64,000 bases of DNA. Origin: Jiella marina. GTDB taxonomy: Bacteria; Pseudomonadota; Alphaproteobacteria; Rhizobiales; Rhizobiaceae. Positions 28,470-54,510 of the stretch are shown here, piece by piece. The notes beneath the pieces are model-generated. The model was not told where the DNA came from and ran no database searches. It saw nothing but the letters and a program-made list of their open reading frames with translations. The translations under genes and the position numbers were made by a program. Location of the stretch: assembly GCF_024359545.1 (NCBI RefSeq), contig NZ_JAKQZG010000001.1, forward strand, positions 310,001 through 374,000. The letters run 5' to 3'. Each line of letters opens with the position of its first letter. Positions within the stretch are counted from its first letter, which is position 1.

Positions 28470-29660
28470 ATGAACGATCTAGACAATGAGTCCGTTGCAT
28501 CCGGCAACGGTGGCCGGTCATTCGCAAGCCACATCGGGCGGGCGGCCGCTTCGATCGACTGCGCGGCGATTTTCGATGCTGCAGACAAGGTCGCGTCCGA
28601 ACTTCTGTCGCGCCCAGAATTTGCCGGCCGCGACCGATACATCATGGCGGGCTCCGGCGACAGCCTCTTTGCCGCCCGCTCGACGGTCCCCGCAATCAAG
28701 CGGTGGAGCGGGATGGATTTCGAGGTTCTGACTTCGATCGAGTTTTCCCGCTACGAACTTGACTTTGCGCCAGATCGCACGGTCCTGATCGCCGTCTCGA
28801 ATTCCGGAAGCTCGACCCGCACACGCGAGAGCGTCCATTTGGCGAAAGCGTGCGGGATCCCAGCCCTCGGGATCGTCGGCTCGCTGAACGGCCCGCTCGC
28901 CGAAATGGCCGATCTCATTCTGCACCGTCCCGTCGCACTGGGCGAGGACAAGCCCGAATGGGCGCCGCGGCTCTATCTCAACATGATCGAATATGTGGGT
29001 GCGCTGATCGCCATGTACGGCCTGGGGCTGGCGCTCGGCGAGCGAAACGGTCGTCTTTCCGCCGAGGATGCCGCGACGAAGCGCGAAGCCATCACCCGCG
29101 CGGTGGAAGCAATCGGTCACGGCGGCGAGATCGCCGAACCGCTCTGCGACCGACTGCTCGACGAGGCCGGTGATCTCGACACGATCTGGATCATCGGCGC
29201 CGGCCCGAACGCCGGAACGGCCGAATACAGCGCCGCGAAGTTCCACGAGCAGGTGCCGATCAACGGCATTCCCCAGGACCTCGAGGAATGGGCTCATCTG
29301 CAGTATTTCCTGACACTGGAGCTCGACAAGCCGGCGACCGTGCTTGTCCTCGGACCCCAAGGCCGCAGCTTCGACCGGGCCGCCGAAATGCTGACCGGCA
29401 TTAGGAATGCCGGCGGCCGAGGCATTCTCGTCACCAACAGCGGGGACGAGGAGGCAGCCCCTGATGCCGCTCTTCGCATCACCATGCCGCTCGTCGAGGA
29501 CGAGTACCTCACGCCCATCACCTTCCACCTGCCGGCGCAGATCATCGCCATGCATCTCGCCCATCGGCGGGGCGTGGCGCAGACACCGCGCACGCGCCGG
29601 GACGATTACTGGCTCATCAGAAAGGGGGACATGATCACCGATCCCGCAAAGCTTCGCTGA
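28470..29660 (+). CDS. SIS-domain protein, FrlB/GlmS-like (deglycase or isomerase)
   Basis: 396 aa with two SIS domains. Phosphosugar-binding motifs are MAGSGDSLFAARS (about 59-71) and VSNSGSSTRTRESVHLA (109-125). The second domain has HEQVPINGIPQDLEEWAHLQ; the adjacent glutamates (~272-273) sit where FrlB/FraB-type deglycases carry a catalytic Glu. These enzymes split 6-phospho Amadori compounds into sugar phosphate and amine. First gene of a nine-gene operon (SIS, binding protein, SIS, ATPase, two permeases, PfkB, PuuE-like, racemase-like). Activity on a glycosylated amine or amide is inference. Confidence 0.82.
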   Translation: MNDLDNESVASGNGGRSFASHIGRAAASIDCAAIFDAADKVASELLSRPEFAGRDRYIMAGSGDSLFAARSTVPAIKRWSGMDFEVLTSIEFSRYELDFAPDRTVLIAVSNSGSSTRTRESVHLAKACGIPALGIVGSLNGPLAEMADLILHRPVALGEDKPEWAPRLYLNMIEYVGALIAMYGLGLALGERNGRLSAEDAATKREAITRAVEAIGHGGEIAEPLCDRLLDEAGDLDTIWIIGAGPNAGTAEYSAAKFHEQVPINGIPQDLEEWAHLQYFLTLELDKPATVLVLGPQGRSFDRAAEMLTGIRNAGGRGILVTNSGDEEAAPDAALRITMPLVEDEYLTPITFHLPAQIIAMHLAHRRGVAQTPRTRRDDYWLIRKGDMITDPAKLR

Positions 29661-29716
29661 CGCAACGGCTTCGGCGAAGGCCTGATCATTCGAAAGTCCA
29701 AACCAGGAGAATGCAG

Positions 29717-30757
29717 ATGACAATCAACAGACGCACCTTCGGCAAGACGATCCTCGCAGCCGGCGCAGGTCTGGCAATGCCCTCGATCGCCCGCGCGCAG
29801 TCCAAGGAACTCGTCATCATCAGCTATGGCGGTCAGTTGCAGGAGCCGCATCGCTGGCTGGCCGACAAGCTGGAACAGGAAGAATCCGGCCTGACGATCC
29901 GTCTGATTGCGAGCGAGTCCCAGGACATCGTCGCGCAGATCAAGGCCGCACAGGGCTACAGCCCCTACGACGCGATGCCGAACGGCGAGCCGCCGCATCT
30001 CATCGCGATCGACGAAGGCTATATCCAGAAGGCCGATCCCTCGCAGATCCCGAACTACGACAACGTCGTTCCCGGCTTCATCGAGAAGAGCCAAGGCTAC
30101 GGCGTGCCCGCGACCTACTCGCTGATCGGCATCGCCTACAATGAGGAGATGATCGAGACCCCGCCGACGAGCTGGGAAGATCTCTGGAACGAAGAATACA
30201 AGGACATGGTCGGCATCTGCCGCACCTCGTCCAATCTCGGCCTCGGCACGCTTGCGGTGACCGCAAAGATCTTCGGCGGGTCGGAGACCAATCTGGAACC
30301 CGGCTGGGAGAAGCTCCAGGAGCTCAACCCGATCGCGGGTCGCAGCCCGAGCGCTCTGGCGCAGATGCTCGAGCGCGGCGAAGTCGGCATCGCGCCCCTG
30401 TGGAACAACGATGCGGCGGTTGCCGCTCAAAAGGGTTTGCCGATCAAGTTCGTGAAGCCGAACCCCGGCCCTGTGGCGATCCTGTCCTTTATGTCGGCGA
30501 TCACCGGAACGCGCTATCCCGAGCTCGTGAACCAGTGGATGAACGGCGTCATCAGCAAGGAATACCAGCAGATGGCCGCCGCCGCGCCGTATTATTTCGG
30601 CGTCACGGTCGAAGGCGTCGAAGTCCCTGAGGAGGCCAAGCCCTACACCCCGGCCTCGCCGGAGGAAGTCGCCAATCTCCAGACTGTCGAGTGGAAGGAG
30701 ATCGTCAAGGTCCGGCCCCAGCTGGTCGAGCGTTTCGACCGGACCTTCGCGAGCTAG
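29717..30757 (+). CDS. ABC transporter substrate-binding protein, PotD/Fe-type, Tat signal
   Basis: 346 aa from ATG 29717; AGGAG lies 7 bases upstream, while the ATG at 29711 is too close to it. Twin-arginine signal NRRTFGKTILAAGAGLAMP ends at ARAQ. The mature part (SKELVIISYGGQLQEPHRWL) belongs to the family 1/PotD-like group. It sits between two SIS genes and is followed by its own ATPase and permeases. The ligand is presumably the substrate of the operon's kinase and SIS enzymes. Confidence 0.87.
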   Translation: MTINRRTFGKTILAAGAGLAMPSIARAQSKELVIISYGGQLQEPHRWLADKLEQEESGLTIRLIASESQDIVAQIKAAQGYSPYDAMPNGEPPHLIAIDEGYIQKADPSQIPNYDNVVPGFIEKSQGYGVPATYSLIGIAYNEEMIETPPTSWEDLWNEEYKDMVGICRTSSNLGLGTLAVTAKIFGGSETNLEPGWEKLQELNPIAGRSPSALAQMLERGEVGIAPLWNNDAAVAAQKGLPIKFVKPNPGPVAILSFMSAITGTRYPELVNQWMNGVISKEYQQMAAAAPYYFGVTVEGVEVPEEAKPYTPASPEEVANLQTVEWKEIVKVRPQLVERFDRTFAS

Positions 30758-30763
30758 GCCTTC

Positions 30764-31855
30764 ATGACGGACACGGAAGTCATTCCGGAGCCGATGCTTC
30801 AGGACGTGCGGCGCCAGCCGCACGTCCTCCGGGACCTCGCCGGCCGGGTCGGCGAGATCGCGGAGTTTCATGCCGAGCATCTTGCCGGCGGTACGGGCCG
30901 AACAGTCGCCTTCGGCAGCGGCGACGGCTGGTTCGCGGCGCGCAGCGCCACGACTGGGACGTTGCTTGCCGCCAGCGGACTCGAAATCGCCGGCGATGCC
31001 GGACCGGAGATGGGTCCCGGTGACGGTGGGATCGCCATTTCCATGTCGGGCAATGTCGATCGGACCGTCGAAGCGGCCGAACGGCTTCTCGCTAGGGGCG
31101 CCCGCGTGACGGCGCTGACCAATGGTGGCGGCGGACGTCTCGGCGCGCTCGGCCTTCCCTGCTTTGCGCTCCATCTCAGCGATATCGCTCCGTTCCTGTG
31201 CGGCACGTCGAGCTTTCTCACGACCCGCACGGTTCTGGACGCCTTCGCGGCACTCGCTCGCGGCGACGAGCCCGCCCGGATCGCCCGGGTGATCGAAGCG
31301 ACCGCCGACACGATACAAGCCATTCTGCCGCGAGCCGAAGTGCTCGCGACCGAGATCGCCGCCGATCGCGCTACGGCGCCGGCGATCCGTTTCCTGTCCT
31401 GCGGTACGCGGGGGATGGCGATTGCCGACTATGGCGCCGCCAAGCTCGTCGAACTCTGCGCGACGCCGAGCTGGACCGACGATGTCGAGGAATTCGCCCA
31501 TCGCCAGTACTGGACGATGCAGCGGGGCGAGCTGATGACCATGCTGCCGACGACACCGGTGGTCGCCGAGATCGCCTCGGAATCGGCAAAGGCTCTGAAG
31601 GCCATGGACGTGAAGAGCTTGTGGGTCGCGCCGGACGATCTCCCAACCCACGAGGCCGCCTGGTCGCTGACCTACAAGGACAATGGCTGCCATCGCGAGA
31701 GCGTCGCGGCCGTGCCGCTGCAGCTACTCGCCTATCATGTCAGCCTGCAGACGGGCTTCGATCCCAACAGGCGCCTCCACCTGAAACAGGACGAGGTCCG
31801 CTTCAACACGAGCCGACAGCTCACCCGCCGCTCGCTTCTGGGAACCGGCCAATGA
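30764..31855 (+). CDS. divergent SIS-domain protein
   Basis: 363 aa paralogue of the SIS protein at 28470. First-domain motif AFGSGDGWFAARS (about 49-61) is kept. The second Ser-rich phosphate-binding loop, SNSGSSTRT in the paralogue, is replaced by SMSGNVDRT (93-101). The catalytic-region sequence is DDVEEFAHRQYWTM. It could be a partner subunit or have another substrate. ATG 30764 is 6 bases after the binding-protein stop; an 82-base gap precedes the ATPase gene. Confidence 0.75.
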   Translation: MTDTEVIPEPMLQDVRRQPHVLRDLAGRVGEIAEFHAEHLAGGTGRTVAFGSGDGWFAARSATTGTLLAASGLEIAGDAGPEMGPGDGGIAISMSGNVDRTVEAAERLLARGARVTALTNGGGGRLGALGLPCFALHLSDIAPFLCGTSSFLTTRTVLDAFAALARGDEPARIARVIEATADTIQAILPRAEVLATEIAADRATAPAIRFLSCGTRGMAIADYGAAKLVELCATPSWTDDVEEFAHRQYWTMQRGELMTMLPTTPVVAEIASESAKALKAMDVKSLWVAPDDLPTHEAAWSLTYKDNGCHRESVAAVPLQLLAYHVSLQTGFDPNRRLHLKQDEVRFNTSRQLTRRSLLGTGQ

Positions 31856-31937: not shown

Positions 31938-32969
31938 ATGCCGATCGAAGTAGCGGACATCAACAAGCATTTCGGCAAGCTGCACGTGCTTCGCGATTGC
32001 TCGCTGTCGATCCGCGACGGCGAGACGATCACGCTTCTGGGCGCGTCCGGCTGCGGCAAGACCACTCTCCTGCGCTGCATCGCGGGCTTCGAGACGCCCA
32101 GCAGCGGCAAGGTGGTGCTGGGCGGCGAAGACGTGACCCGCCTGCCGCCGAACCAGCGGGGCGTGGGCTTCGTCTTCCAGAACTATGCGCTGTTTCCGCA
32201 CATGACGGTCGCAGAAAACCTCGCCTATGGGCTGAGGGTCCGGCGCGCGGATCGCTCCACGCGCAAGGCCAAGGTCGAGGAGGCGCTGGCCCTGGTCTCG
32301 CTGACGGAGTTCGCCGACCGCTATCCCCAGTCGCTCTCCGGTGGGCAGCAGCAGCGCGTCGCGATCGCCCGCGCGCTCGTTCTCAGACCCAAAGTTCTAC
32401 TTCTCGACGAAGCCTTCAACGCCCTCGACGCCAAGCTGCGCGTGGCGATGCAGATCGAACTGCGCAAGATCGTCAAGCAGGTCGGGATCACCACCATCTG
32501 CGTGACCCACGACCAGACCGAGGCCCTGACGATCAGCGACCGGATCGCGGTGATGTCGAAGGGCCAGATCGATCAGTTCGCAACGCCGACCGAGATCTAC
32601 GATACCCCCACCACCGCCTATGTCGCCGACTTCATCGGCGCGGCGAACGTGCTGCCGGCCGAGCTAGCGGCCAAGCTCCCCTCGCTCGGCGCCAGAGGCT
32701 CGAGGGAAGACCGGATGATCGTCATCCGGCCGGAGAACCTGACGGTGCGCCCGACGAAGGGCAGCGAGCCCCTCGCGGGAACCATCGCCTTCGCCCGCAT
32801 CACCGGGCCCAGCGTCGAATACGAGGTCGAGGCTGCCGAGCGAAAGCTCCGGGTGCTCGTCAGCCGGGCCGATCACGACATGCTGGACATCGGAACGCCG
32901 GTCGCCCTCGACGTAGACAAGGCCGATGCCTGCGTCGCCGTTTCCGGAAGCGTGGAGGGCAGCGCGTAA
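31938..32969 (+). CDS. ABC transporter ATP-binding protein (PotA type)
   Basis: 343 aa. Walker A GASGCGKTT is at 35-43, Q-loop VFQNYALFP, signature LSGGQQQRV at 133-141, and Walker B with VLLLDEAF where DEPF is usual; switch CVTHDQTEA. A TOBE domain follows. Stop TAA overlaps the next ATG by one base. It powers the importer made by the neighbouring binding protein and permeases. Confidence 0.9.
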   Translation: MPIEVADINKHFGKLHVLRDCSLSIRDGETITLLGASGCGKTTLLRCIAGFETPSSGKVVLGGEDVTRLPPNQRGVGFVFQNYALFPHMTVAENLAYGLRVRRADRSTRKAKVEEALALVSLTEFADRYPQSLSGGQQQRVAIARALVLRPKVLLLDEAFNALDAKLRVAMQIELRKIVKQVGITTICVTHDQTEALTISDRIAVMSKGQIDQFATPTEIYDTPTTAYVADFIGAANVLPAELAAKLPSLGARGSREDRMIVIRPENLTVRPTKGSEPLAGTIAFARITGPSVEYEVEAAERKLRVLVSRADHDMLDIGTPVALDVDKADACVAVSGSVEGSA

Positions 32970-33853
32970 TGGCCGCGAGCCTCGTCGACAAGGTCATGAA
33001 GGGCGGCGGCTTCTGGCCCGCGGCTCCGGCTTTCCTCTATCTCGTCGTCTTCTTCATCATGCCGATGGCGGTGCTGTTGGCTTTCGGCTTCGTACCGATC
33101 CAGCGCGGCACCGTCCAGAGTGCCAACTTCACGCTGGAATATCTGTTCGACGTCCTCACCGACGATCTGTTTTGGCGCGTGTGGTGGCGCTCCTTCTATG
33201 TGGGCGTCCTCTCCACCTTCTTCTGCTTCCTCTTCGCCTATCCGCTGGCTTACATCCACACGCTGGTCGGCCGGCGCCTGCAAATGGTGATCCTGATCCT
33301 CACCGTGGCGCCGCTGCTCACGAGTGCGCTTGTGCGCACCTATGCCTGGCTGGTGATCCTCGGGGGCCGGCGCGGCGTCGTCAACGCCGTCCTGATGGAT
33401 CTCGGCCTCGTGTCGCGCCCCTTGCGCATGCTCTATTCCGACTTCGCGGTCATCGTCGGCATGGTGCAGATCCATCTGCCCTTCATGATCCTGCCGCTGA
33501 TCACCGTGCTCTCCTCGCGAGATCGCAAGCTCGAACACGCCTCCCTCGGCCTCGGCGCAAGCCGCGTGCGCACCTTCTTCAGGATCGTGCTCCCCATGAG
33601 CATGCCCGGCATCATCGCCGGCACGACGATCGTCTTCGCCCTGTCTTACACGAATTTCATCATTCCCCAGCTCCTCGGCGGCGGCGGTTACACCACCGTC
33701 GCAGTGCAGGTCTACGAGTTCATCGTCGTGATTCTAGACTGGAACAAGGGGGCGATCCTCGCGCTGCTGCTTCTCGTCAGCTGCTTCCTCTTCGTGCTGA
33801 TGATCACGCTGGCGGGCAACCGCATGATGCGCTGGACGGAGGCCAAGGCCTGA
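32969..33853 (+). CDS. ABC transporter permease (PotB type)
   Basis: 294 aa with about six transmembrane helices; EAA loop KLEHASLGLGASRVRTFFRI. PotB-like segment NFIIPQLLGGGGYTTVAVQV. Coupled by one-base stop/start overlaps to the ATPase before it and the permease after it. Confidence 0.9.
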   Translation: MAASLVDKVMKGGGFWPAAPAFLYLVVFFIMPMAVLLAFGFVPIQRGTVQSANFTLEYLFDVLTDDLFWRVWWRSFYVGVLSTFFCFLFAYPLAYIHTLVGRRLQMVILILTVAPLLTSALVRTYAWLVILGGRRGVVNAVLMDLGLVSRPLRMLYSDFAVIVGMVQIHLPFMILPLITVLSSRDRKLEHASLGLGASRVRTFFRIVLPMSMPGIIAGTTIVFALSYTNFIIPQLLGGGGYTTVAVQVYEFIVVILDWNKGAILALLLLVSCFLFVLMITLAGNRMMRWTEAKA

Positions 33854-34713
33854 TGAGCGAGACCATGACCACCTCCAGGCCCGCCACAGCCGACGTCGCC
33901 GAACGCGGGAACGCCTCGAAGGTGATCGACCGGATCGGCGCCACGATCCTGGCGATCATCGCCGTCTGCACCGTCCTCCTGCTGTCGGTGCCCAGCCTGA
34001 TCGTGATCGCGATCTCCTTCACGGAGACGGCCTATATCGGCTTTCCGCCGCAGGGCTTCACCTTCCAATGGTACGCGGATCTTTTCGCCCGGGACCAGAT
34101 CATCGACGCCGCGGTCACCAGCCTGCAGATCTCGGCCGCGACCACCTGCCTGTCCCTGGCGCTGGCGATCCCGGCGGCCTACGGCCTGGTGCGCGGCCGC
34201 TTCTTCGGCCGGGGCTTCGCGAGCGCCCTCATCGTCGCGCCGCAAATGCTGCCGGGCATGGTGATCGGCGTCGCGACGCTGTTCTTCGGCGCCTATATCG
34301 CCTTCCGGCAGTCGAACCTGATGGTGATCCTGGCGCTCACGGTCTTCTGTCTGCCCTTCGCCGTCCGCATGGTGATGGCGCGGCTGACGCAGCTCGATCC
34401 GGCGCTGGAAGAAGCCTCGCTCTCCATGGGCGCCTCGAAGACCCGCACCTTCTTCGAGATCACCGCGCGCCAGCTCGTCGGAGCGATCATCGCCGGCGGC
34501 GCCTTCGTCGCGATCGAGGCCTTCGACAATCTGACCGTCGCGCTGTTCACCGCCTCGCCGCGCTCGCGGCCCCTGTCGGTCGAACTCTACAATCTCGTCC
34601 AGTTCGACTCGAGCCCGATGGTCGCGGCGTTATCGAGCCTCGAGATCCTCGCCGCCTTCGTGGTGATGATCGTGCTGGCGAAGGCGGTCGGCCTCGACCG
34701 GCTACGAACATGA
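33853..34713 (+). CDS. ABC transporter permease (PotC type)
   Basis: 286 aa with about six hydrophobic helices and EAA loop ALEEASLSMGASKTRTFFEI; segment GAFVAIEAFDNLTVALFTAS fits PotC-like permeases. Start ATG overlaps the previous stop (TGATG). The PfkB gene follows after 13 bases, so transport and catabolism are one transcript. Confidence 0.9.
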   Translation: MSETMTTSRPATADVAERGNASKVIDRIGATILAIIAVCTVLLLSVPSLIVIAISFTETAYIGFPPQGFTFQWYADLFARDQIIDAAVTSLQISAATTCLSLALAIPAAYGLVRGRFFGRGFASALIVAPQMLPGMVIGVATLFFGAYIAFRQSNLMVILALTVFCLPFAVRMVMARLTQLDPALEEASLSMGASKTRTFFEITARQLVGAIIAGGAFVAIEAFDNLTVALFTASPRSRPLSVELYNLVQFDSSPMVAALSSLEILAAFVVMIVLAKAVGLDRLRT

Positions 34714-36614: not shown

Positions 36615-37255
36615 TCAAGCCGGTTCTTCTCATCAATCCGAACAGTTCGGACGAGACGACCCGGCTGATGGTCAGGATCGCCCGTGAAGCCGCATCGACC
36701 ATCACAATACAGGGGGTCACGGCCTCTGAAGCTCCCCCACTGATCACAAACGAAGCCGAACTGGCGATCGCGGCGGTGGCCGTCTGCCAGATCGAAGTTC
36801 CGCCGGTCTATGATGGAGTCATCGTGTCGGCGTTCGGCGATCCCGGCCGAAACGCGCTGGCCAAGCGGCTGGGTGTCCCGGTCCTGGGGATCGCCGAAGC
36901 AAGCATGCGTCTCGCCGCTGAGAACGGTCGGCGCTTCTCCGTCGCGACCACCACGCCCGACCTCGTGCGCGCCATCGAGCGGCGCGCGGCGATCCTCGGC
37001 CATGGCGCGCAGCTCGCGTCTGTCCGGCTGACGGAGGGGCCACTGGAGGCCGTGATGCGTGATCCCTGCCTACTGCACACCGCGCTGGCCAAGGCGGTGA
37101 CCCAAGCGGTCGAGGAGGATGGGGCGGAAGCCGTGATCATCGGCGGTGGTCCGCTGGCGGCGGCGGCCCGCAGCCTCGCCGCCACCTCGCCGGTGCCGTT
37201 GATCGAGCCGATCCCCGCCGCCGTGACCGCGATCGAGAAGGCTTTGAGCCGCTAA
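36611..37255 (+). CDS. Asp/Glu/hydantoin racemase-family protein without catalytic Cys pair
   Basis: 214 aa. The fold is clear (LLINPNSSDETT, VIVSAFGDPG, VLGIAEASM, AVIIGGGPLA). The first catalytic Cys position reads Ala (SAFGDPG, ~74) and the second, normally LGCAG, reads IGGGP (~179). Two-base racemisation is therefore unlikely, and another reaction or a binding role must be considered. Last gene of the rightward operon; it overlaps the convergent gene by 4 bases at the stop codons. Confidence 0.8.
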   Translation: MIKPVLLINPNSSDETTRLMVRIAREAASTITIQGVTASEAPPLITNEAELAIAAVAVCQIEVPPVYDGVIVSAFGDPGRNALAKRLGVPVLGIAEASMRLAAENGRRFSVATTTPDLVRAIERRAAILGHGAQLASVRLTEGPLEAVMRDPCLLHTALAKAVTQAVEEDGAEAVIIGGGPLAAAARSLAATSPVPLIEPIPAAVTAIEKALSR

Positions 37256-46926: not shown

Positions 46927-48279
46927 TCACTGGAGAAGGTGCTCGAAAGCCGCCGCCGCGCCGAGAACCGTCCGGTCGCGGCCAAAGCCCCCGCCGATCT
47001 GAAGGCCCAGCGGAAGGCCGGTTTCCGAAACCCCGCACGGTATCGAAATGGCCGGCAGCCCGGCGTGATTGAACTGGGCAGTGAAGGCGGCATGATCTCG
47101 GGGAGCCGCCGGAGCGCCGCCGATCGTCTCGGGACCAAGCTGCACCGAAGGCCACGCCGCGCAGGGCGTCGTCGCACTGAGGACGAGGTCGTATTCGTCC
47201 ATGAACGCTCGCATTGTCTCGCGCATCTTCCGCGAAGCTTCGAGCGCATTGGCGACGTCGGCGCCGGAAAGCCGCAAGCCTGCCTCGATCTGCGTACCGA
47301 TGTCGGGATCGAAGTCGTCCGGCGCTGCCTGCCATCTCGTGCCATAAAGCGCGGCGAGCCCGGCCCATTGGAGCGGCATCGCGTCGCCCGGTCCGGCGCC
47401 ATCCGGCCAGGCAGGCGCGGCGTCGGCGATGTCGAAACCCGCGGCGCGGAAGCGCTCCGCAGCCATGGCGAGAGCCGAGATCGAAGACGTGTCCATCTTC
47501 GCATCGAGGCCGAGCGTCGGAGCGAATGCGATCCGCAGGCTCTTCAAATCCTCTGGCGCAGGCAACAGCGCGGCAGCGGTCGGCCCCGAGGAGAGAAGCT
47601 CGAACATCAGTGCCGTGTCGGCGACGTCGCGGGCGATCGGAGCGAGGACCGCAATGTTCCAGAAGGGTTCCGGATAACCTGGACCGTAGGGGATCACGTC
47701 CTGCGAGGGCTTGAAGCCGACGACACCCACATGGGCCGGTGGGCGCCGGCTGGATCCGCCCGCGTCCGTGCCGAGGGCGAGCGGCGCCATGCTCGCGGCA
47801 ACGCCGACGGCCGGGCCGCCCGACGAGCCGCCGGGCGTCAGGTCCGGGTCCATCGGGTGGTGAGTGGTCCCGTGAAGCAGCGAGGTGGTGACACCCTTGC
47901 AGGCGAATTCCGAAGAAGCGCCGATCCCCAGGATGACGGCGCCGGCGGATTTCAGGAGGTAGACAGCCCGCGCGTCCCTTGCAGGAACGGCATCGGCGAA
48001 GAGCCGAGAGCCCTGCGTGATCGGACGTCCCTCGACCCAGACCGTATCCTTGATGATGATCGGCACGCCCGCGAGCGGCAGGGTCTCGCCCGCGCCGATC
48101 TGGGCGTCCACCGCTTTCGCCTCGGCGAGCGTCATTTCGGCATCGAAATGGGTGAGCGCATTCAGCTTCGGCTGCAGGGCGCGAACGCGTTCGATTGCGA
48201 CTTTCGAGATATTGACCGCACTGCTGCGGCCCGATTGAACGTCGGCCGCAATCGCCCTCGCACTCTGGATTTCGCTCAT
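46927..48279 (-). CDS. amidase signature family enzyme
   Basis: 450 aa. Ser-cisSer-Lys triad complete: Lys77 in VPIIIKDTVWVEG, the cis-Ser in TPGGSSGGPAVGVAA (~152-153) and the nucleophile in LGTDAGGSSRRPPAH (~176). The residue after the nucleophile is Ser instead of the usual Ile/Val. It hydrolyses an amide or carbamoyl bond (GatA, AtzF and urea-amidolyase relatives share the fold). Start ATG 48279 overlaps the permease stop by 4 bases, so it is co-made with the importer. Confidence 0.88.
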   Translation of the reverse strand: MSEIQSARAIAADVQSGRSSAVNISKVAIERVRALQPKLNALTHFDAEMTLAEAKAVDAQIGAGETLPLAGVPIIIKDTVWVEGRPITQGSRLFADAVPARDARAVYLLKSAGAVILGIGASSEFACKGVTTSLLHGTTHHPMDPDLTPGGSSGGPAVGVAASMAPLALGTDAGGSSRRPPAHVGVVGFKPSQDVIPYGPGYPEPFWNIAVLAPIARDVADTALMFELLSSGPTAAALLPAPEDLKSLRIAFAPTLGLDAKMDTSSISALAMAAERFRAAGFDIADAAPAWPDGAGPGDAMPLQWAGLAALYGTRWQAAPDDFDPDIGTQIEAGLRLSGADVANALEASRKMRETMRAFMDEYDLVLSATTPCAAWPSVQLGPETIGGAPAAPRDHAAFTAQFNHAGLPAISIPCGVSETGLPLGLQIGGGFGRDRTVLGAAAAFEHLLQ

Positions 48280-49076
48280 CCCTGGATCATCCGGTTCAGC
48301 CCGACCGTACGCGCCCCGATTGCAAGCACGACGATCGCCAGAAGAATGAGCCCTGTGGACATGGCCGCGATCGACGGATCGGGCTGTTCCTCGAGATATT
48401 GGAGCATCTTGATCGGAAGCGTCTTGTTCCACGCGTCGGTCAGGAAGATCGAGATCGGATAATTGTCCATCGAGGCGAGGAAGGCGAAGAGACCGCCGGT
48501 CAGGTAGGCGGGCGCGAGGTTGGGGATCAGCACCTTGGCGATCGCCTTCGGGTAGCTCATGCCGAGGGTTCGGGCCGCGTCGATCATCGAGAAGTCGAAA
48601 CTGCCCATGGCGGCGAGAAGCGTGCGCATGACGAAGGGCAGCGTGATGACGACGTGGGCCAGGAGCAGGCTCCAATAGGCATCGCGCAGGCCGATATCGC
48701 GGAAGAACTGCAGCATGGCAACACCGAGCACGAGACCCGGCATCATCAGCGGGGAGACGACGAAGGTCCCGACACCCGCGCGACCGGGAAACTGCCCTCG
48801 TGCCACTGCGATCGCGGCTGCCGTGCCGAGCGCCAGGCTGATCGCGGTGGAGAGTACGGCGAGGTTCAGCGAGAGGATGACCGCCTCGACGAGCCCGGAT
48901 TTTCGCTGCAGCGCCTCGTACCAGCGCAGCGACCAGTCCGGCGGCGGCAGCGTGTAGACGGGCGAGGCCGAGAAGGAGACCACGACCGTGATCACGATCG
49001 GCAGCATCAGAAAGGCGGCGGTGGCAAGGCCGATCGCCCAGGAGAGCCTCGAGAAGATCTGATCCGTACGGGTCAT
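48276..49076 (-). CDS. ABC transporter permease (PotC type)
   Basis: 266 aa from ATG 49076 (MTRTDQIFSRLS); the open frame upstream of it belongs to another frame of the neighbouring gene. Six hydrophobic helices, EAA-type loop SMIDAARTLGMSYPKAIAKV, and AFLASMDNYPISIFLTDA near the C-terminus. Overlaps both the permease before it and the amidase after it by 4 bases. Confidence 0.88.
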   Translation of the reverse strand: MTRTDQIFSRLSWAIGLATAAFLMLPIVITVVVSFSASPVYTLPPPDWSLRWYEALQRKSGLVEAVILSLNLAVLSTAISLALGTAAAIAVARGQFPGRAGVGTFVVSPLMMPGLVLGVAMLQFFRDIGLRDAYWSLLLAHVVITLPFVMRTLLAAMGSFDFSMIDAARTLGMSYPKAIAKVLIPNLAPAYLTGGLFAFLASMDNYPISIFLTDAWNKTLPIKMLQYLEEQPDPSIAAMSTGLILLAIVVLAIGARTVGLNRMIQG

Positions 49077-49951
49077 TCCTTGGCTCCCAGTCGCGCCGCC
49101 AGAAAACTCGAAGAAAGAACGACGACGATCGCGATGATGAGGAGGATCGCGGAGATGGTCGAACCGAGCTGTTCGTTGCGCAGATAAAGGAAGGAGCGCG
49201 CGATCAGCATCGGCAGGGTCTGCTGCGTCTCGCCGACGATCAGACTCGGGATCACATACATCGAGATCGACATCGAAAAGACGAAGGCCGCGCCTGCAAC
49301 GATGCCCGGCAGTGTCAGCGGCAGGCTCACATTGAAGAAGCGGAATATCGGACCCGCCCCGAGGCTCGCCGCGGCGTGCTGAAGCGCTTCGTCCTGCTGG
49401 CGCAGGACCGCGTAGATCGGCAGCACCATGAAGGGCAGGAAGACGTTTGCCGCGCCGACGACGAGCGCAGTCTCGGTGAAGAGCATGCGGATCGGCGCAT
49501 CGATGAGACCGATGAATTCCATGGTCTGGTTGAGAGCCCCATTCGAGCGGAAGAGGATCGACCAGGCGAACGCCTTGACCACGACGCCAAGCGACATGGG
49601 CAGCACCATCGCCACCAGAAACACCGTGAGCCACACCCCCTTGGCGCGGTTCATCGCGATCGCCGTCGGATAGGCGATGGCCAGCGACAGAAGCGTCGTC
49701 AGGAAAGCGACGCGGAGGGTCCGCAGGAGAACTTCGAGATTGTAGCTTTCGGCGAAGAAGCTCGTATAGGCATCGAGCGTGATCCCCCCGTCTTCGCTCC
49801 TAAAGCTCTGCAGAAGAAGAAGCAGGAGCGGGATCGCATAGAGCACCGCAAGGTAGAGAAGCCCCGGCGCGGCGAGCAGCGCGATCTTGTCGATCGGGGA
49901 TCGGATCGGCCGGGGCGGTGTGCCGGATATGGCGTGGCGAAGCTCGGTCAC
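49073..49951 (-). CDS. ABC transporter permease (PotB type)
   Basis: 292 aa with about six transmembrane helices; EAA loop ALQHAAASLGAGPIFRFFNV and segment MYVIPSLIVGETQQTLPMLI. PotB-like partner of the next permease; overlaps the ATPase gene by 4 bases. Confidence 0.9.
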   Translation of the reverse strand: MTELRHAISGTPPRPIRSPIDKIALLAAPGLLYLAVLYAIPLLLLLLQSFRSEDGGITLDAYTSFFAESYNLEVLLRTLRVAFLTTLLSLAIAYPTAIAMNRAKGVWLTVFLVAMVLPMSLGVVVKAFAWSILFRSNGALNQTMEFIGLIDAPIRMLFTETALVVGAANVFLPFMVLPIYAVLRQQDEALQHAAASLGAGPIFRFFNVSLPLTLPGIVAGAAFVFSMSISMYVIPSLIVGETQQTLPMLIARSFLYLRNEQLGSTISAILLIIAIVVVLSSSFLAARLGAKE

Positions 49952-51093
49952 GCGGCGGCTCCATAGGCGAGCGTGTCCTCGATCGCCCAGTCGAAGACCA
50001 CCTTCTGCCCTCGCGCGAAGCCAGCCTTGATGCCGGGCAGTTCGCAGACCAGCCTGTCCGGTTCGTCGCAGCGCCCGTGGAGCATGGTCTTCGAGCCGAG
50101 GACCATGACGTCCTCCAGAACGACCTCGACGCGGTTTCGCCCGGCTTCCAGCGCCGGCGCCTCGCCGGATGGAAAAGCCCTGACGAGTTCGGGGCGAACA
50201 CCGATGACGGCCCCCTCGCCCTTCCGCAGCGCGATGGGCGTCCGGACCGATCCATGCGATGTGCCGACATCGCAGGCGCCATCAGCCTTCTCCGTCGCCG
50301 TCCCGTTAAGACGCAGCGAGAGACCGACGAAATCCATGACGAAGGGCGTTGCGGGCCGCGCATAGAGTGTCGAGGGATCGGCGAACTGCTCGATCCGCCC
50401 TGCATTCATGACGGCGATGCGGTCGGAAACGCCGAGGGCTTCCTCCTGATCGTGGGTCACGAAGACGGCGGTGATGCCGCTGTCGCGGAGCAATGATTTG
50501 AGCTCGACCTGCATGGTCTCCCGCAGCTTGCGGTCGAGAGCCGAAAAGGGTTCATCGAGGAGCAGGAGGTCCGGCCGGACGACAAGGGCCCGGGCCACGG
50601 CGATCCGCTGCTGCTGCCCGCCGGACAGGCCGGCGATCGGCTTGTCCATATAGCTTTCCATCCGCACCAGGCGCAGTGCATCGCGGACCGGACTCTCGAT
50701 TTCGCTCTTTGCGTGACCCCGCGCCTTCAGACCGAAACCGACATTCTCGCCGACGGTCAGATGAGGAAACAGAGCGTAGTTCTGGAAGACCACCGAGATG
50801 TTGCGCTTGTGGGCCGGCAGATTGGTGATGTTCCGCGGACCCAGAACGATCTCGCCTTCGTCCGCCGGCATCAAGCCGGCGATGATGCGCAGAAGCGTCG
50901 TCTTTCCGCAGCCGGATGGCCCAAGGAGCGAGACGAGTTCGCCCCGGGCCATCCGAAAGTTCATCTCATCCATGACCGTCGTGCCACGGAAGGATTTGCG
51001 CACCATCACCACTTCGAGATAACGCGCATCGCGTGATTCTTCGTTCATATAGGGAACCGCGCTCTCGACGCTCGAAGGGGCAATGGCGCGCAT
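49948..51093 (-). CDS. ABC transporter ATP-binding protein (PotA type)
   Basis: 381 aa. Walker A GPSGCGKTT at 58-66, Q-loop VFQNYALFP, signature LSGGQQQRI, Walker B LLLLDEPF, switch FVTHDQEEA, then a TOBE domain. A later ATG (51048, MNEESRDA) would shorten the N-terminus by 15 residues and may be the true start. The gene begins 4 bases after the binding-protein stop. Confidence 0.9.
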   Translation of the reverse strand: MRAIAPSSVESAVPYMNEESRDARYLEVVMVRKSFRGTTVMDEMNFRMARGELVSLLGPSGCGKTTLLRIIAGLMPADEGEIVLGPRNITNLPAHKRNISVVFQNYALFPHLTVGENVGFGLKARGHAKSEIESPVRDALRLVRMESYMDKPIAGLSGGQQQRIAVARALVVRPDLLLLDEPFSALDRKLRETMQVELKSLLRDSGITAVFVTHDQEEALGVSDRIAVMNAGRIEQFADPSTLYARPATPFVMDFVGLSLRLNGTATEKADGACDVGTSHGSVRTPIALRKGEGAVIGVRPELVRAFPSGEAPALEAGRNRVEVVLEDVMVLGSKTMLHGRCDEPDRLVCELPGIKAGFARGQKVVFDWAIEDTLAYGAAA

Positions 51094-51097: not shown

Positions 51098-52135
51098 TCA
51101 ACCCGCCATCAGCTTGTCGAAACGTTCGATCCATTCGCGCCGATTGGAGGTGACGAAGGACCAGTCGGGCGAGTGGATCGGCACGCCCGATGGCACGATC
51201 GCGCCGGCATCGACCTTGGTATTGGCGGGAACGGAGGAAGCGAATTCAGCGATCTTCGCCTGCAGATCGGCGCCGAGCATCTCGTTGACATAGGCTTCGG
51301 CGAGTTCGGGATTGGGGCCGCCCTTTACCAGGCAAATGCCGGACGGCATGGCGAAGATGCCCTCGGAAGGCGCAGCGAGATCGACCGGCACGCCTTCGGC
51401 CTTGCGCGGCAGCGTGTAGGAGGAGAAATTACCCGAAAGCATCGTGATCTCACCCTGTTCGAGCAGGTTGAAGGCCTGGCTCATGATCGAATAGGTCGTG
51501 AGGACGTTCGGCTTCAGTTCCTCGAGCTTGGCAAAGGCCGCATCGGTCTCGTACTGGGCTTCGGCGAACGGCTTGCCGGTCGCCAGCATCGCTGCGGCGA
51601 AGAGCGTCCACATGCCTTCGGTGTTCTGGAGCGAGGGGATGATGACCCTGCCCTTGGCCTCTTCCGACCACAGGGCCGACCAGGAATCGACGCCCTCGCG
51701 GGCATTGGTGTTGTAGGCGATTCCCGCCCAGGGCTGAACATAGTTCGCCCACATGCCGTCCATGTGGATGGTGCCGTCACGCAAATTCGCAAGATTGGGC
51801 ACGGCGGACTGGTCCATCGGACGAAGCAACTCCTCCTCGACCGCCTGGATCATCACCGGATCATCCATCTGGACGACGGAGAGATACGGGTTGCTGCGAT
51901 TGGATGCCATCTTCTCGAGATTGACCGAGGATTTGGTGCCCTCGAACAGGATTTCGGCCCCGATCGTCTCGCGCATATGCGGGGCGACGATCTGTTCCAT
52001 CCAAGCGGTGTGGCTCCCCGCACAACCGATCACGAGTTCCTTCGACTGCGCACGAACAATGCCCGGAAGCGCGAGAGTTCCAAGGGCAAGCGCCCCGGTA
52101 CCCTTCAGTAGTGAGCGGCGGGAAATGGGATTCAT
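51098..52135 (-). CDS. ABC transporter substrate-binding protein, PotD/Fe-type, Tat signal
   Basis: 345 aa with a twin-arginine signal SRRSLLKGTGALALGTLALP ending IVRAQ. Mature start SKELVIGCAGSHTAWMEQIV places it in the family 1/PotD-like group, like the protein at 29717. First gene of the leftward importer-amidase operon; divergent from the amidohydrolase at 52370. Binds the substrate processed by amidase and racemase-like protein. Confidence 0.87.
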   Translation of the reverse strand: MNPISRRSLLKGTGALALGTLALPGIVRAQSKELVIGCAGSHTAWMEQIVAPHMRETIGAEILFEGTKSSVNLEKMASNRSNPYLSVVQMDDPVMIQAVEEELLRPMDQSAVPNLANLRDGTIHMDGMWANYVQPWAGIAYNTNAREGVDSWSALWSEEAKGRVIIPSLQNTEGMWTLFAAAMLATGKPFAEAQYETDAAFAKLEELKPNVLTTYSIMSQAFNLLEQGEITMLSGNFSSYTLPRKAEGVPVDLAAPSEGIFAMPSGICLVKGGPNPELAEAYVNEMLGADLQAKIAEFASSVPANTKVDAGAIVPSGVPIHSPDWSFVTSNRREWIERFDKLMAG

Positions 52136-52343: not shown

Positions 52344-52369
52344 CATGCTTTGCCTAAAGGGAGCGCAAA

Positions 52370-53719
52370 TTGCCCAAGTATTTGGCATACCATATCGTCA
52401 ATGCCCGACTGATCTGTCCGGAAGCCGGATATCGGGCGGGTTGCGACATCGTCATTCGCGATGGGCATATCGCGGACATCCTGCCTGCCGGCAGCCTTCG
52501 AAAGGACGAGCCGGATGTGGAGCGGATCGATGCGCGGGGCGGGATTGTCCAGCCAGGCTTCGTCAACACGCACAATCACTCGCCGCTCACCATCGTGCGC
52601 GGCATGGTCGAGGATCGCGGCTTCGCCCCGGCCTATACGCCGGGCGTGCCCCAGGGACATTGGCTCTCCGAGGACGAGACGCTTGCGCTGGCGCGGCTCG
52701 GCGTCCTTGAACTCTTGTGTGCGGGCTCGACGACTGTCGTCGACTATTACCGCATGCCGCAGGCCCTGGCTCGCGCCGCCGAAGAGATCGGCGTCCGCGC
52801 TCAGGTCGGCGGGCGCGTCATGGACGCTGATACGGCGGCCCTCGCCGAGGGCCGTTTCGTCCACGACCCCGCCCTCGGAGAAGCGACACTCGCCGCGGCC
52901 CTCGATCTGGTCGAAAGCTGGGACGGACGCGGCAACGGGCGCATTTCGACGATCCTCGCGCCCCATGCGCCCGACACTTGCTCGCGCGAGATGTTGACGA
53001 GATTCGCCGAACTCGCCGCCAAAACGGGCAAGCAGGTCCACACCCATTTGGCGCAGTCCGTCATGGAGGTGGAGCAGATCCGGGAAAGAGAGGGAATGAG
53101 CCCCGTCGAATTTCTCGAAGACACGGGGCTGCTCAACGAAGACCTCGTCGCGGCCCACTGCATCTATCTGCCCGACGAAGACATCCAGCGGGCCGGCGGT
53201 GCGGGCATCGCCGTCGCCCATGCACCGATCGGCAACGCCGCCTTTGGCGCGGCGGCGCCCATCGTGGCGTTGAGGGATGCCGGTGCTCGCATCACACTGT
53301 GCACCGACACCAAGTCGGCGGACATGTTCGAGGCGATGCGCTATGCGCTTTCGGCAGCACGCTCTCGTGAAGCTGGAAAGACGGGACGGGCGTCATTGGC
53401 TTTGAATGCGCGGGAAGTCTTTGGCTGGGCAACGTCCGCCGGGGCCAAAGCTCTTAAGGGCCACGGCGCGACCGGCACCCTGAAGGTGGGCGACCCGGCG
53501 GACCTGGTCGTTCTGGACGCCGATGCACCGAACCTAGCCCCCGTCATCGACGGCTTCGGCATCGTCGTCCATTCCGGTAGCGGCGCCAATGTGCGCACGG
53601 TCTTCTGCGACGGAGAATGCCTCCTGCGCGATGGGCGCCCGACCCGCGTCGATGCATCGGAAGTCATCGCCACGGCTCAGGCAGTCGCTGACAGGCTCTG
53701 GGCCCGCGCCGCCGCCTGA
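52370..53719 (+). CDS. ATZ/TRZ-type amidohydrolase
   Basis: 449 aa with a TTG start (MPKYLAYHIVNARL) 7 bases after AGGGAG; no ATG fits the N-terminus. Metal motifs: VQPGFVNTHNHSPLTIVRGM (HxH), KQVHTHLAQSVMEVEQ (His), VAAHCIYLPDEDI (His) and ITLCTDTKSADMFEAM (Asp). Resembles cytosine/guanine-deaminase or triazine-hydrolase types. Third such enzyme in the cluster, transcribed alone and divergent from the importer operon. Confidence 0.87.
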   Translation: MPKYLAYHIVNARLICPEAGYRAGCDIVIRDGHIADILPAGSLRKDEPDVERIDARGGIVQPGFVNTHNHSPLTIVRGMVEDRGFAPAYTPGVPQGHWLSEDETLALARLGVLELLCAGSTTVVDYYRMPQALARAAEEIGVRAQVGGRVMDADTAALAEGRFVHDPALGEATLAAALDLVESWDGRGNGRISTILAPHAPDTCSREMLTRFAELAAKTGKQVHTHLAQSVMEVEQIREREGMSPVEFLEDTGLLNEDLVAAHCIYLPDEDIQRAGGAGIAVAHAPIGNAAFGAAAPIVALRDAGARITLCTDTKSADMFEAMRYALSAARSREAGKTGRASLALNAREVFGWATSAGAKALKGHGATGTLKVGDPADLVVLDADAPNLAPVIDGFGIVVHSGSGANVRTVFCDGECLLRDGRPTRVDASEVIATAQAVADRLWARAAA

Positions 53720-53772
53720 CTGATCGTCGCGAAGAACCTGCGGTCGCATGCAAGGCGCGCCGGAAGACGAGA

Positions 53773-54510
53773 TCAACCGCGCGGCATATCTGCGCCGTAG
53801 CGCTCTTCCAGAACGCGCGAGACGGTTTCGCCGGTATGGGCGAGATGGGTACGCCAGGCCTCGAATGCCGCTGCACCATCCCGGTTGCGAAGGGCATCCA
53901 TCAGCACCTCGTGCTCCTCGACCGACTGCTTCCAGCGCTGGTCGCTCATGATGGCAAGGAATCGGCCGCGGCGCGCTTTCAGCATCAGCCGCCGGTGATT
54001 TTCGGCCAGACGACGATTGCCGCAAGACGCGATCACCAGATCGTGGATCGCGGAATTCGTGTCAAAGTAGGGATCGATATCCCGGTGCCGGAAATGGGTC
54101 TTCATTTCCGCGTGCATTCCTTCAAAACGTGCAAGCAGCGCCGGCGCGATGGTCTCGGCTAGCCGCTGGGCGGCAAGGCCCTCCAGAACGGCGATCACAT
54201 CGAACAGGTTGCGTGCTTCTTCGGAGGAATAGCCCGTGACCTGGGCGCCGCGATTGCGGTTGATCTCGATCAGCCCATCCGCTTCGAGCAGTTTCAATGC
54301 CTCTCGCACCGGCGTGCGCGAGACTTCGAGTTCGGCGGACAGACGGCGCTCGACGATCCGGTCGCCAGGCGCCAGTTGGCCGCGCACGATGCGCTCCCGG
54401 AGGATGTCGGCAACGCGCGCAGCCATCGCGGTGATCGAGATGTCGGCCATGGCAGGAGATTTCGCGGTGGTGGGCATTACCGGTTGGCTGTAATCGAAAG
54501 ACACGGACAA
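53773..54510 (-). CDS. GntR-family regulator (FadR/FCD subfamily)
   Basis: 245 aa (a later Met at 54477 or 54450 may be the real start). N-terminal winged HTH: LRERIVRGQLAPGDRIVERR and ELEVSRTPVREALKLLEADG. The C-terminal all-helical FCD effector domain holds His residues at positions for a metal/carboxylate site (SAIHDLVIASCGN, EHEVLMDALRNRD). Only regulator gene inside the 28-54 kb cluster, so it probably controls at least the adjoining operons in response to a carboxylated metabolite. Confidence 0.88.
   Translation of the reverse strand: MSVSFDYSQPVMPTTAKSPAMADISITAMAARVADILRERIVRGQLAPGDRIVERRLSAELEVSRTPVREALKLLEADGLIEINRNRGAQVTGYSSEEARNLFDVIAVLEGLAAQRLAETIAPALLARFEGMHAEMKTHFRHRDIDPYFDTNSAIHDLVIASCGNRRLAENHRRLMLKARRGRFLAIMSDQRWKQSVEEHEVLMDALRNRDGAAAFEAWRTHLAHTGETVSRVLEERYGADMPRG

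Follow-up and report, generated by a model that had tools for sequence, protein, structure and literature searches.

In the Frl and Fra systems a fructosamine kinase works with a SIS deglycase, as a PfkB and SIS pair; Frl is not known to need a BtpA protein. Pseudouridine catabolism combines PsuK, a PfkB-family kinase, with PsuG, a glycosidase: the nucleoside-like compound is phosphorylated and cleaved, and its base is then degraded. Among ring-degrading enzymes, hydantoin and allantoin racemases have two catalytic cysteines, and ATZ/TRZ enzymes of the deaminase type carry HxH, HxxE, H and D motifs.

The locus described here lies in a 64,000-nucleotide stretch of Jiella marina DNA (the window) and resembles each of these systems in part. 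It shares with Frl/Fra the logic of a kinase and a SIS protein beside an importer, but its SIS proteins are GlmS-like, not FrlB-like, and it has BtpA and ring hydrolases, with kinase and SIS genes each occurring more than once. The order of events in pseudouridine breakdown could apply, although SIS and BtpA proteins stand in place of PsuG, whose C-glycosidase family is absent among the Pfam matches of the 25 genes. With the PuuE ureide/allantoin pathway it has in common two PuuE-family proteins with the conserved stretches of PuuE (puuA, puuB) and one protein with both racemase cysteines (racB). Unlike that pathway, it adds kinase, SIS and BtpA genes, its PuuE-type proteins score below the allantoinase cut-off, and no uricase or M20 family is found among the Pfam matches of the 25 genes. 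Plain allantoin catabolism was rejected because of the sub-threshold PuuE scores and the missing uricase family.

Gene content of the locus

Pfam comparison and gene reading confirmed the make-up given in a preliminary description of the locus, apart from the corrections noted below (Table 1). The two PfkB kinases, the BtpA protein, the amidase and the regulator (GntR-FCD) are all present; Polysacc_deac_1 matches three proteins, as expected of three PuuE/NodB-fold hydrolases, and Amidohydro_1 matches the three ATZ/TRZ amidohydrolases, whose active-site motifs differ. Among the matches listed, no NCBIfam model was reached at or above its own cut-off by any cluster protein. The genes form separate same-strand blocks. 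Overlapping operons had been proposed, and 11 of the 24 adjacent gene pairs do overlap (by 1-11 bases in ten of them, by 41 in the other), a count that depends on the starts chosen. Pfam shows two importers with binding protein, ATPase and permeases; the importer 1 permease had been taken for one gene. A single 595-aa permease ORF (32926-34713) was rejected, two overlapping genes being read there.

Table 1. Genes of the Jiella marina locus, with positions in the window.
Gene	Coordinates	Strand	Product and matches
sisA	28470..29660	+	SIS-domain protein, GlmS isomerase-like; Pfam SIS 72 bits, 2 stretches
sbp1	29711..30757	+	PotD-type solute-binding protein, importer 1; SBP_bac_6/8
sisB	30764..31855	+	divergent SIS protein; SIS 31.5 bits
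abc1	31938..32969	+	importer 1 ATPase; ABC_tran + TOBE_2
perm1a	32969..33853	+	importer 1 permease; relatives mostly 50-70% in conserved loci
perm1b	33850..34713	+	importer 1 permease; BPD_transp_1
pfkA	34727..35719	+	PfkB-family kinase; PfkB 67 bits
puuA	35679..36614	+	PuuE-family cyclic amidohydrolase; TIGR03212 279 bits; PuuE structure 3cl6 E 5e-66
racA	36611..37255	+	Asp/Glu racemase-fold protein lacking both racemase cysteines; Asp_Glu_race
puuB	37252..38193	-	PuuE-family cyclic amidohydrolase; TIGR03212 299 bits
atzA	38193..39728	-	ATZ/TRZ amidohydrolase with HxxE; Amidohydro_1 147 bits
pfkB	39733..40671	-	PfkB-family kinase; PfkB 92 bits; adjoins sisC in relatives
sisC	40661..41848	-	SIS protein, GlmS isomerase-like; SIS 105 bits, 2 stretches; GlmS 1moq E 8e-28
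btpA	41900..42670	-	BtpA/SgcQ-family protein, predicted phosphate-binding TIM barrel; BtpA 96.5 bits; model pLDDT 92.9
atzB	42940..44436	+	ATZ/TRZ amidohydrolase with HxxE; Amidohydro_1 131 bits
racB	44457..45224 (ORF start possibly 44433)	+	allantoin/hydantoin-racemase-like, both Cys present; Asp_Glu_race
puuC	45221..46099	+	divergent PuuE/NodB-fold hydrolase; Polysacc_deac_1 28.5 bits; TIGR03212 108 bits
racC	46126..46878	-	Cys-less racemase-fold protein, free-base module; Asp_Glu_race
amiE	46927..48279	-	amidase-signature hydrolase; Amidase 257 bits
perm2b	48276..49076	-	importer 2 permease; BPD_transp_1 43 bits
perm2a	49073..49951	-	importer 2 permease; 25.4 bits, just below Pfam cut-off 26.4
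abc2	49948..51093	-	importer 2 ATPase; ABC_tran + TOBE_2
sbp2	51098..52135	-	importer 2 binding protein
atzC	52370..53719	+	ATZ/TRZ amidohydrolase with HxxQ; Amidohydro_1 155 bits
gntR	53773..54510	-	GntR/FCD regulator, free-base module

Kinase, SIS and BtpA proteins

Both kinases scored well above the Pfam gathering score for PfkB (25.8). The three SIS proteins, mutually 25-30% identical, had been called FrlB-like; the SIS domain is there in all three, but by score each is closer to GlmS than to FrlB. The best of them against the FrlB model (NCBIfam PRK11382, cut-off 430) was sisC, with 27 bits; sisA and sisB had no match to it among those listed. The alignment of sisC with the GlmS isomerase domain includes the Glu/His stretch, and a stretch resembling it can be picked out by eye in sisA and sisB.

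The btpA product exceeds the Pfam gathering score for its family (30) and lies under the NCBIfam TIGR00259 cut-off (105 against 153.4 bits). It was modelled confidently as a TIM barrel, whose nearest structures are phosphate-binding barrels (thiamin-phosphate synthase, ribulose-P epimerase, TrpA, TrpC and TrpF; TM about 0.5-0.6); the invariant BtpA residues are predicted to sit at strand ends. A sequence search of the PDB found no BtpA relative, the best match being a designed barrel (E 0.005). The protein is distinct from the Brucella TIR protein that shares the name BtpA.

Ring enzymes and binding proteins

Although puuA and puuB are close to PuuE, all three PuuE-type proteins fall below the TIGR03212 cut-off (424.6). 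By eye, the HxxE motif is present in atzA and atzB and replaced by HxxQ in atzC; against the 8-oxoguanine deaminase model (NCBIfam PRK08203, cut-off 532) atzA, atzB and atzC scored 168, 209 and 206 bits. Three hydantoin-racemase-family proteins had also been listed. All three match Asp_Glu_race, but both cysteines are absent from racA and racC, in 11/11 and 5/5 aligned members respectively, and retained in all five aligned racB members. Thus, racB alone has the racemase feature; three true racemases were rejected, the two-cysteine mechanism being impossible for racA and racC.

Plain polyamines had been raised as ligands that would speak against the proposed pathway. sbp1 is PotD-like, yet it reaches only 53 bits against a PotD cut-off of 582, and the positions that we take to be the acidic ligand residues of PotD, in its TDDARE and WMD stretches, are occupied by Ser, Gly and Ser in the aligned sbp1 sequence. 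Because these positions are neutral, a plain-polyamine ligand appears disfavoured for sbp1, and we rejected plain polyamine import by this protein. That importer 1 serves polyamines, the remainder being polyamine-linked nitrogen scavenging, is barely plausible. sbp2 weakly matches the mannopine-binding protein 5l9s.

Conservation of the sugar and ring genes

The preliminary description had claimed that the kinase, SIS and BtpA genes belong together with the PuuE, ATZ and racemase genes and had named gene-neighbourhood analysis as its test; the claim survives. The census was anchored on BtpA and covered 31 distinct loci that carry a BtpA of the same subfamily as the window; 30 of them count as alphaproteobacterial by search or title, and one is from a firmicute. 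Genes of relatives were called with matched genes as seeds, and partners were counted within 7 kb. A PfkB gene was found in 31/31 loci, SIS in 30, ATZ in 22, PuuE-like in 19 and racemase-family in 17. The 11 ordinary BtpA loci that served as control had no ATZ or racemase-family gene and one PuuE-like gene, and seven of them had no SIS gene. The gene set thus recurs across genera in many related bacteria. Window-type BtpA occurs in only 6 of 296 other genomes of the order; all six also carry relatives of sisC and of atzA, the latter being present in 30 genomes, 24 of them without window-type BtpA. btpA was not found in the five congeners sampled.

Two variants could be told apart, one with a PotABCD importer and atzA, puuA, puuB and racA, the other with an Opp-type importer and atzB, puuB, racB and puuC. 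In L041, L047, L048 and L051, for example, both sets lie in one same-strand run with a single importer. Relatives of sbp1 (42-78% identical) adjoin the PfkB-SIS-BtpA trio in many loci, as sisB relatives adjoin a PfkB kinase gene; the sisA-pfkA pair again precedes atzB in G464/L037, L034, L036 and L039, and atzB relatives (70-77%) are found in 6/23 genomes with the window's BtpA subfamily. In eight loci btpA has a regulator gene next to it, always from one group, whose L033 member is DeoR by Pfam. Other loci are reduced: in the stretches read there is no racemase gene at L043 and L046, and neither PuuE nor racemase genes at L042, L050 and G070; in the cut stretches of L044, L045 and L056 the trio stands alone. 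The Elioraea locus L053 has the trio, a binding protein that resembles PotD and not Bmp, and no PuuE, ATZ or racemase gene in 20.7 kb read. In G231, sisC and pfkB occur without btpA or ring genes, beside genes for a GMC oxidoreductase and a sugar-binding-type protein.

Genes for Bmp/PnrA-like (nucleoside-type) binding proteins often adjoin trio relatives, as in G050, G278, G291 and L056, and G278 also has AtzD/TrzD ring-opening, ureidoglycolate lyase, PuuE-like and DeoC-family genes. A pMHb locus of Mesorhizobium huakuii has, by annotation, the same trio in the order kinase-SIS-BtpA with a BMP-family binding-protein gene beside it, but its BtpA belongs to a different subfamily (33% identical), its importer differs, and ATZ, PuuE and racemase genes are absent in the 14.7 kb read. 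Most of the Bmp cases come from a BtpA subfamily other than the window's.

The second half of the locus

One fixed 26-kb supercluster, as first proposed, does not hold, since the second importer, amiE, racC, atzC, gntR and puuB are found apart from the sugar genes. The congener G586 has gntR (87-88% identical), atzC, sbp2 (92-94%), abc2, amiE, racC and, beside these free-base genes, puuB (88%), with no SIS, PfkB or BtpA gene in 40 kb read; on plasmids, too, second-half genes and puuB have no kinase, SIS or BtpA gene in their vicinity. sbp2 relatives (77% identical in Salipiger L069) occur in 12 of the 296 genomes, only two of them among the six with window-type BtpA, and there far from the cluster. 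On G586 and these counts, one undivided 26-kb pathway was rejected. The split is not absolute, because G067, G561 and L053 have second-half relatives no more than about 20 kb from btpA.

Ring genes without sugar genes nearby stand beside an ABC importer (NMT1-type in G586 and L105, Pfam-checked), often with a carbon-nitrogen hydrolase gene, which suggests that the ring enzymes act after deglycosylation. Such free-base loci, on plasmids and in Hyphomicrobiales, consist of ABC importer, carbon-nitrogen hydrolase and ATZ genes, in cases with PuuE, racemase and amidase genes. They share atzA relatives with the window (49-56%), and those of Salipiger and Methylobacterium also PuuE and an sbp2-type importer, but lack SIS, PfkB and BtpA genes in the stretches read. 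In the atzA tree, sugar-cluster copies group apart from free-base copies, neither being resolved as one clade.

Discussion

The best reading of these data is that a front end, which would import, phosphorylate and deglycosylate a glycoside, is coupled to a back end for the free cyclic-ureide base. Tentatively, and at somewhat less than an even chance, the 28.5-46.1 kb segment would encode the modular catabolism of a nucleoside-like N-glycoside whose base is a cyclic ureide, imide or lactam; from genomic context we infer the substrate class, the order of steps and the deglycosylating role of BtpA and SIS. Importer 1 would take up the glycoside, the PfkB kinases would phosphorylate its sugar, and the SIS proteins and BtpA barrel would release or rearrange the sugar phosphate, freeing the base. 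This would presumably be deaminated by atzA and atzB and opened at its ring or rings by the PuuE-type enzymes, with racB interconverting stereoisomers, amidase-type enzymes taking the final steps, and racA and racC performing some cysteine-free chemistry. The second set (46.1-54.5 kb and puuB), into which the pathway is built, may handle this base once it is free, or a ring compound related to it.

A pathway for N-glycosylated ureides, hydantoins or amides had been suggested by analogy with Amadori compounds. Its sugar and ring sets are indeed conserved together; the Frl/Fra analogy is weak. In an Amadori-type deglycation, kinase and SIS deglycase would have as their substrate a fructosamine-like adduct formed by a ring amide or amine, BtpA would handle the sugar phosphate and the ring enzymes would degrade the aglycone. 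The PfkB and SIS pair, the GlmS-like Glu/His stretch and the weak mannopine-binding match of sbp2 agree with this, but the low FrlB score, the presence of BtpA, and trio relatives near Bmp/PnrA-like, DeoC-family and (one locus, other strand) nucleoside-hydrolase genes make it unlikely. The PnrA-like neighbours strengthen the modified-nucleoside idea also put forward in the preliminary description. Oxidised or damaged nucleosides, such as guanidinohydantoin or iminoallantoin glycosides from oxidised guanine, are a long shot as substrate: the base would be set free by the importer, kinase and SIS/BtpA steps, its guanidino or imino group would be converted by an ATZ deaminase to give the ureide (allantoin), and opening of the hydantoin ring would fall to the racemase and the PuuE-type enzymes. 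If true, this would link DNA and RNA damage products to nitrogen scavenging.

The sugar or aminosugar genes and the ring-nitrogen genes might also form two co-regulated, chemically independent pathways whose substrates come from one source, such as nucleoside or plant-exudate mixtures. Their separate blocks in the window, the atzA genomes without window-type BtpA, and trios without ring genes in L053 and most SIS-bearing ordinary BtpA loci fit such an arrangement; the single-importer runs and the separate grouping of sugar-cluster atzA, though not as one resolved clade, argue against it, and we consider it improbable. That common scavenging operons came together by chance in a single strain, with no functional meaning, is very improbable: each family is common by itself, the sampled congeners gave no btpA and most relatives have the 46-54.5 kb half elsewhere or not at all, but the set recurs in 31 loci and contrasts with the 11 controls.

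The system had been called undescribed; a search of open-access papers found no description of the combined gene set, returning nothing or papers unrelated by title and abstract start. For SgcQ/BtpA it gave only unrelated or passing mentions, the Brucella TIR namesake included, and no catalytic role for the family; the word guanidinohydantoin was absent among the matches listed. PMC4016543, in the part available, concerns a different purine route and mentions no SIS domain, PfkB or racemase.

If the proposed front and back ends are right, the BtpA/SgcQ family would have a role in releasing sugar phosphate from nucleoside-like glycosides, with PfkB and SIS partners, and alphaproteobacteria would have a conserved, patchily distributed pathway for N-glycosylated nitrogen rings, testable with about ten genes. 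Annotations as 'hydantoin racemase' in such loci call for caution, as proteins of the racA and racC types can be without the racemase cysteines.

Gene content and layout of the cluster

Pfam and NCBIfam matches bore out the gene list of the preliminary description for positions 28,470-54,510, except that importer 1 has two permease genes (perm1a, perm1b) instead of one. None of 20 proteins scanned reached an NCBIfam model cut-off among its best 25 models. The genes fall into six same-strand blocks and, as had been proposed, many overlap (11 of 24 neighbouring pairs, with the start codons chosen here). G+C is 0.658-0.671 in blocks 1-3 and, where measured outside them, 0.634-0.642. The source genome (window, G000:C1:310001-374000) measures 5.08 Mb and is 99% complete.

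Features of the window and of two further loci
Feature	Position	Strand	Description
Block 1		+	sisA-sbp1-sisB-abc1-perm1a-perm1b-pfkA-puuA-racA
Block 2		-	btpA-sisC-pfkB-atzA-puuB
Block 3		+	atzB-racB-puuC
Block 4		-	sbp2-abc2-perm2a-perm2b-amiE-racC
Block 5		+	atzC
Block 6		-	gntR
racA	36611-37255		cysteine-free racemase fold
racC	46126-46878		cysteine-free racemase fold
Sugar-type cluster	15802-22281		separate cluster
ROK regulator	15802-17070		sugar-type cluster
Binding protein	17172-18413		sugar-type cluster
Weak SIS match	~20330-21349		sugar-type cluster
Third PfkB kinase	21349-22281		sugar-type cluster
Formamidase-like protein	26342-27739		FmdA/AmdA family
atzC of congener G586	L079 6856-8205		two adjoining pieces
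Second BtpA locus of G000	C2 ~49400-57700		L082/L083

Sugar and ring genes recur together around BtpA

The conservation analysis took btpA as its anchor. An evenly drawn sample of 296 further genomes of the order, common to the btpA, sisC, atzA and sbp2 queries, contained a btpA relative at 49-62% identity in 6 genomes, and an ordinary BtpA, of another subfamily (34% match), in 3 more. All 6 btpA genomes were among the 8 with sisC relatives (E up to 1e-35) and the 30 with atzA relatives (E up to 1e-130); only 2 were among the 12 with sbp2 relatives (E up to 1e-90). The hypergeometric chance of these overlaps, a rough figure because the genomes are related, is 3e-11 for sisC, 7e-7 for atzA and 0.02 for sbp2. 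A family-level search of 296 genomes added 4 with btpA; the gene was not found in any of the five congeners in that draw. A scan of genome contigs, which favours near relatives because it was seeded by short patterns from the window's BtpA, gave 24 window-type loci, in Aureimonas, Aurantimonas, Devosia, Skermanella, Ancylobacter, Prosthecomicrobium, Alsobacter, Paracoccus, Roseibium, Cypionkella, Elioraea and others, including one Oscillospiraceae MAG. Three genomes, recognized by contigs of identical length, were met twice (G106/L050, G319/L049, G464/L037) and were merged, leaving 31 loci besides the window.

Within 7 kb of btpA, a span clipped in 9 of the 31 loci by the end of the contig or fetched stretch, PfkB genes were present in 31, SIS in 30, ATZ in 22, PuuE-like in 19 and racemase-family genes in 17; over the whole stretches read (5.7-40 kb per locus), ATZ genes occurred in 27. 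Eleven ordinary BtpA loci searched with the same kind of profiles had PfkB in 9, SIS in 4, PuuE in 1 and neither ATZ nor racemase genes (Fisher p: ATZ 4e-5, racemase 1e-3, PuuE 4e-3). In the two without a PfkB profile match, a PfkB or FGGY kinase is annotated. This control was a non-random choice (seven plasmid loci hand-picked from 40 of 153 records, the three 34% matches and the second BtpA of G000) and was counted over entire stretches (12.7-40 kb, four extending past 15 kb), a bias in its favour. The joining of sugar-kinase/SIS genes with ring hydrolases proposed earlier is thus upheld, the two sets recurring together in the 31 loci as compared with the 11 controls.

The sole control with PuuE, in genome G278, further carries genes of the AtzD/TrzD ring-opening and DeoC families and genes for ureidoglycolate lyase and aldehyde dehydrogenase; since its ring genes lie beside a PfkB-SIS-BtpA trio, it represents a further case of the same association. 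Some 26 kb there (L031/L032) hold the AtzD/TrzD hydrolase, a class-V aminotransferase, an amidase, the lyase, PuuE-like and DeoC-family genes and the trio, and perhaps encode a complete nucleoside-to-ureide route. The second BtpA gene of G000 accompanies genes for a PfkB kinase, an importer and proteins of the TenA and phosphotriesterase families; by annotation, plasmids of Roseivivax and Pantoea carry similar loci.

Two main variants were distinguished. The first combines a PotABCD importer with sisB, sisC, kinases, btpA, puuA/puuB, racA and atzA; it includes the loci closest to the window (G021 and Roseibium L038, 46-78% per gene) and forms a single same-strand run with two sbp1 copies and two kinases in Ancylobacter (L047) and Aureimonas (L048/L051). 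The second (G464/L037, L034, L036, L039; atzB 70-77%) has an Opp-type importer with btpA, a DeoR-group regulator, sisB, a kinase and an extra amidohydrolase, then sisA-pfkA, atzB, puuB, racB and puuC. The window carries parts of both. Devosia L035 and Cypionkella L033 have atzB/racB/puuC together with sisB/sisC. Reduced or cut loci were without PuuE and racemase genes (L042, L050, G070), without a racemase gene (L043, L046) or with the trio only (L044, L045, L056). Elioraea L053 shows only the trio in 20.7 kb; another contig of that genome has SIS, PfkB, PuuE and atzB.

The ring genes also occur without the sugar genes

The view of the cluster as one undivided 26-kb unit did not hold. The congener G586 (84% complete) carries gntR, atzC, sbp2, abc2, amiE, racC and puuB with 78-94% identity, and no BLAST match to SIS, PfkB or BtpA was found in 40 kb around them. 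Its racC-puuB interval contains a GntR-like gene, genes for a permease, an ATPase and a binding protein of the NMT1 type, carbon-nitrogen and M20 hydrolases and an atzA relative at 51%, in place of the window's atzB-racB-puuC, btpA, sisC, pfkB and atzA. Furthermore, in the two genomes having both sbp2 and btpA from the order-wide sample, these lie on different contigs or more than 1 Mb apart. A clean split, however, is countered by loci that have genes related to the 46-54.5 kb half no more than about 20 kb from btpA: atzC, racC, amiE and gntR in G067; sbp2, abc2, perm2b and racC in G561; sbp2, perm2b and abc2 in L053.

Of the 24 genomes or second copies with atzA distant from window-type btpA, five loci (L102-L106) were examined, L105 being the additional copy of the sugar-cluster genome G106. 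By BLAST, all five had an ATPase gene close to atzA and no gene of the trio. Pfam verification of NMT1 was limited to G586 and L105, and that of carbon-nitrogen hydrolase to G586 and L104. By annotation, plasmids of Burkholderia, Paraburkholderia, Klebsiella and Methylobacterium carry an importer, a carbon-nitrogen hydrolase and an atzA relative in a row (the Klebsiella importer ATPase, unannotated, was found by BLAST). In Salipiger, importer and atzA relative adjoin sbp2-abc2-permeases-PuuE-amidase-racC and gntR; in Leptolyngbya, genes for a racemase, an amidase and ABC proteins lie nearby. We read the loci lacking the trio as the same ring back end acting on free bases. In a tree of 26 atzA proteins and 2 outgroup rows, copies cluster by context (none of 500 shuffles gave as low a value), with sugar and free-base copies not resolved as one clade each (sugar group whole in 25% of bootstrap trees). 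The G586 atzC reads as pieces of 97 and 348 aa, which points to a disrupted gene or an error in the sequence.

Active-site residues and BtpA model

Of the three presumed hydantoin racemases, racB alone retains both cysteines that are catalytic in allantoin/hydantoin racemases; racA and racC align Ala and Gly at these positions. Among members above 110 bits from the loci gathered by that stage, the replacement is found in 11/11 racA-type and 5/5 racC-type proteins, the window's own included, and both cysteines in 5/5 racB-type proteins. RacA and RacC represent a subgroup within the Asp/Glu racemase fold that lacks these cysteines and has the motif AFGDPG ... G[GA]PLA, conserved in the aligned members; this subgroup probably has another activity. 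The ATZ proteins carry HxxE (atzA, atzB) or HxxQ (atzC).

An AlphaFold model of BtpA (23 sequences; pLDDT 92.9, pTM 0.90) best matched thiamin-phosphate synthase, ribulose-phosphate epimerase, TrpA, TrpC, KDPGal aldolase, HisF and TrpF, with TM of about 0.5-0.6 and many near ties, so that the matches give the fold class and not the reaction. The invariant residues Q51, D52, H91, D92, R109, K111, D148, T180, G181, G206, G207 and S227 lie at, or within 5 residues of, C-terminal strand ends of the model, the placement expected of a live phosphate-binding barrel.

Proposed sugar front end and pathway

A Bmp/PnrA-like binding protein, of a type that binds nucleosides in known cases, adjoins trio relatives in G050, G278, G291 and L056 (Pfam) and in M. 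huakuii (by annotation), and lies 1.8 kb downstream of btpA in L034; on its opposite strand, L056 further carries a nucleoside hydrolase gene. Exceptions are L053, whose trio goes with a PotD-like protein, and G231, whose sisC-pfkB pair goes with one of sugar type. In the latter (L101), sisC-pfkB at 55-60% identity accompany a DeoR regulator, a GMC oxidoreductase and the sugar-binding-type protein, with no btpA in the stretch read. A single regulator group adjoins btpA in 8 loci; its L033 member is DeoR by Pfam, as is a similar gene in L101. DeoR proteins usually respond to phosphorylated sugars. No regulator of this type was called beside the window btpA.

The most likely order of steps would be import, phosphorylation, sugar phosphate release by SIS/BtpA, deamination, ring opening and amide cleavage; deglycosylation would precede ring opening, as suggested by ring genes occurring elsewhere without sugar genes. 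Many loci keep two kinases and two SIS proteins, possibly for two different sugars or for two steps in the same route. Searches confined to open-access papers brought up no description of this gene set among those listed, and one may exist in subscription papers or preprints. The separate sugar-type cluster of the window also contains permease-like genes. The formamidase-like protein has a twin-arginine-like signal at its start, recognized by eye, and scores 72 bits with the FmdA equivalog, far under its cut-off of 500.
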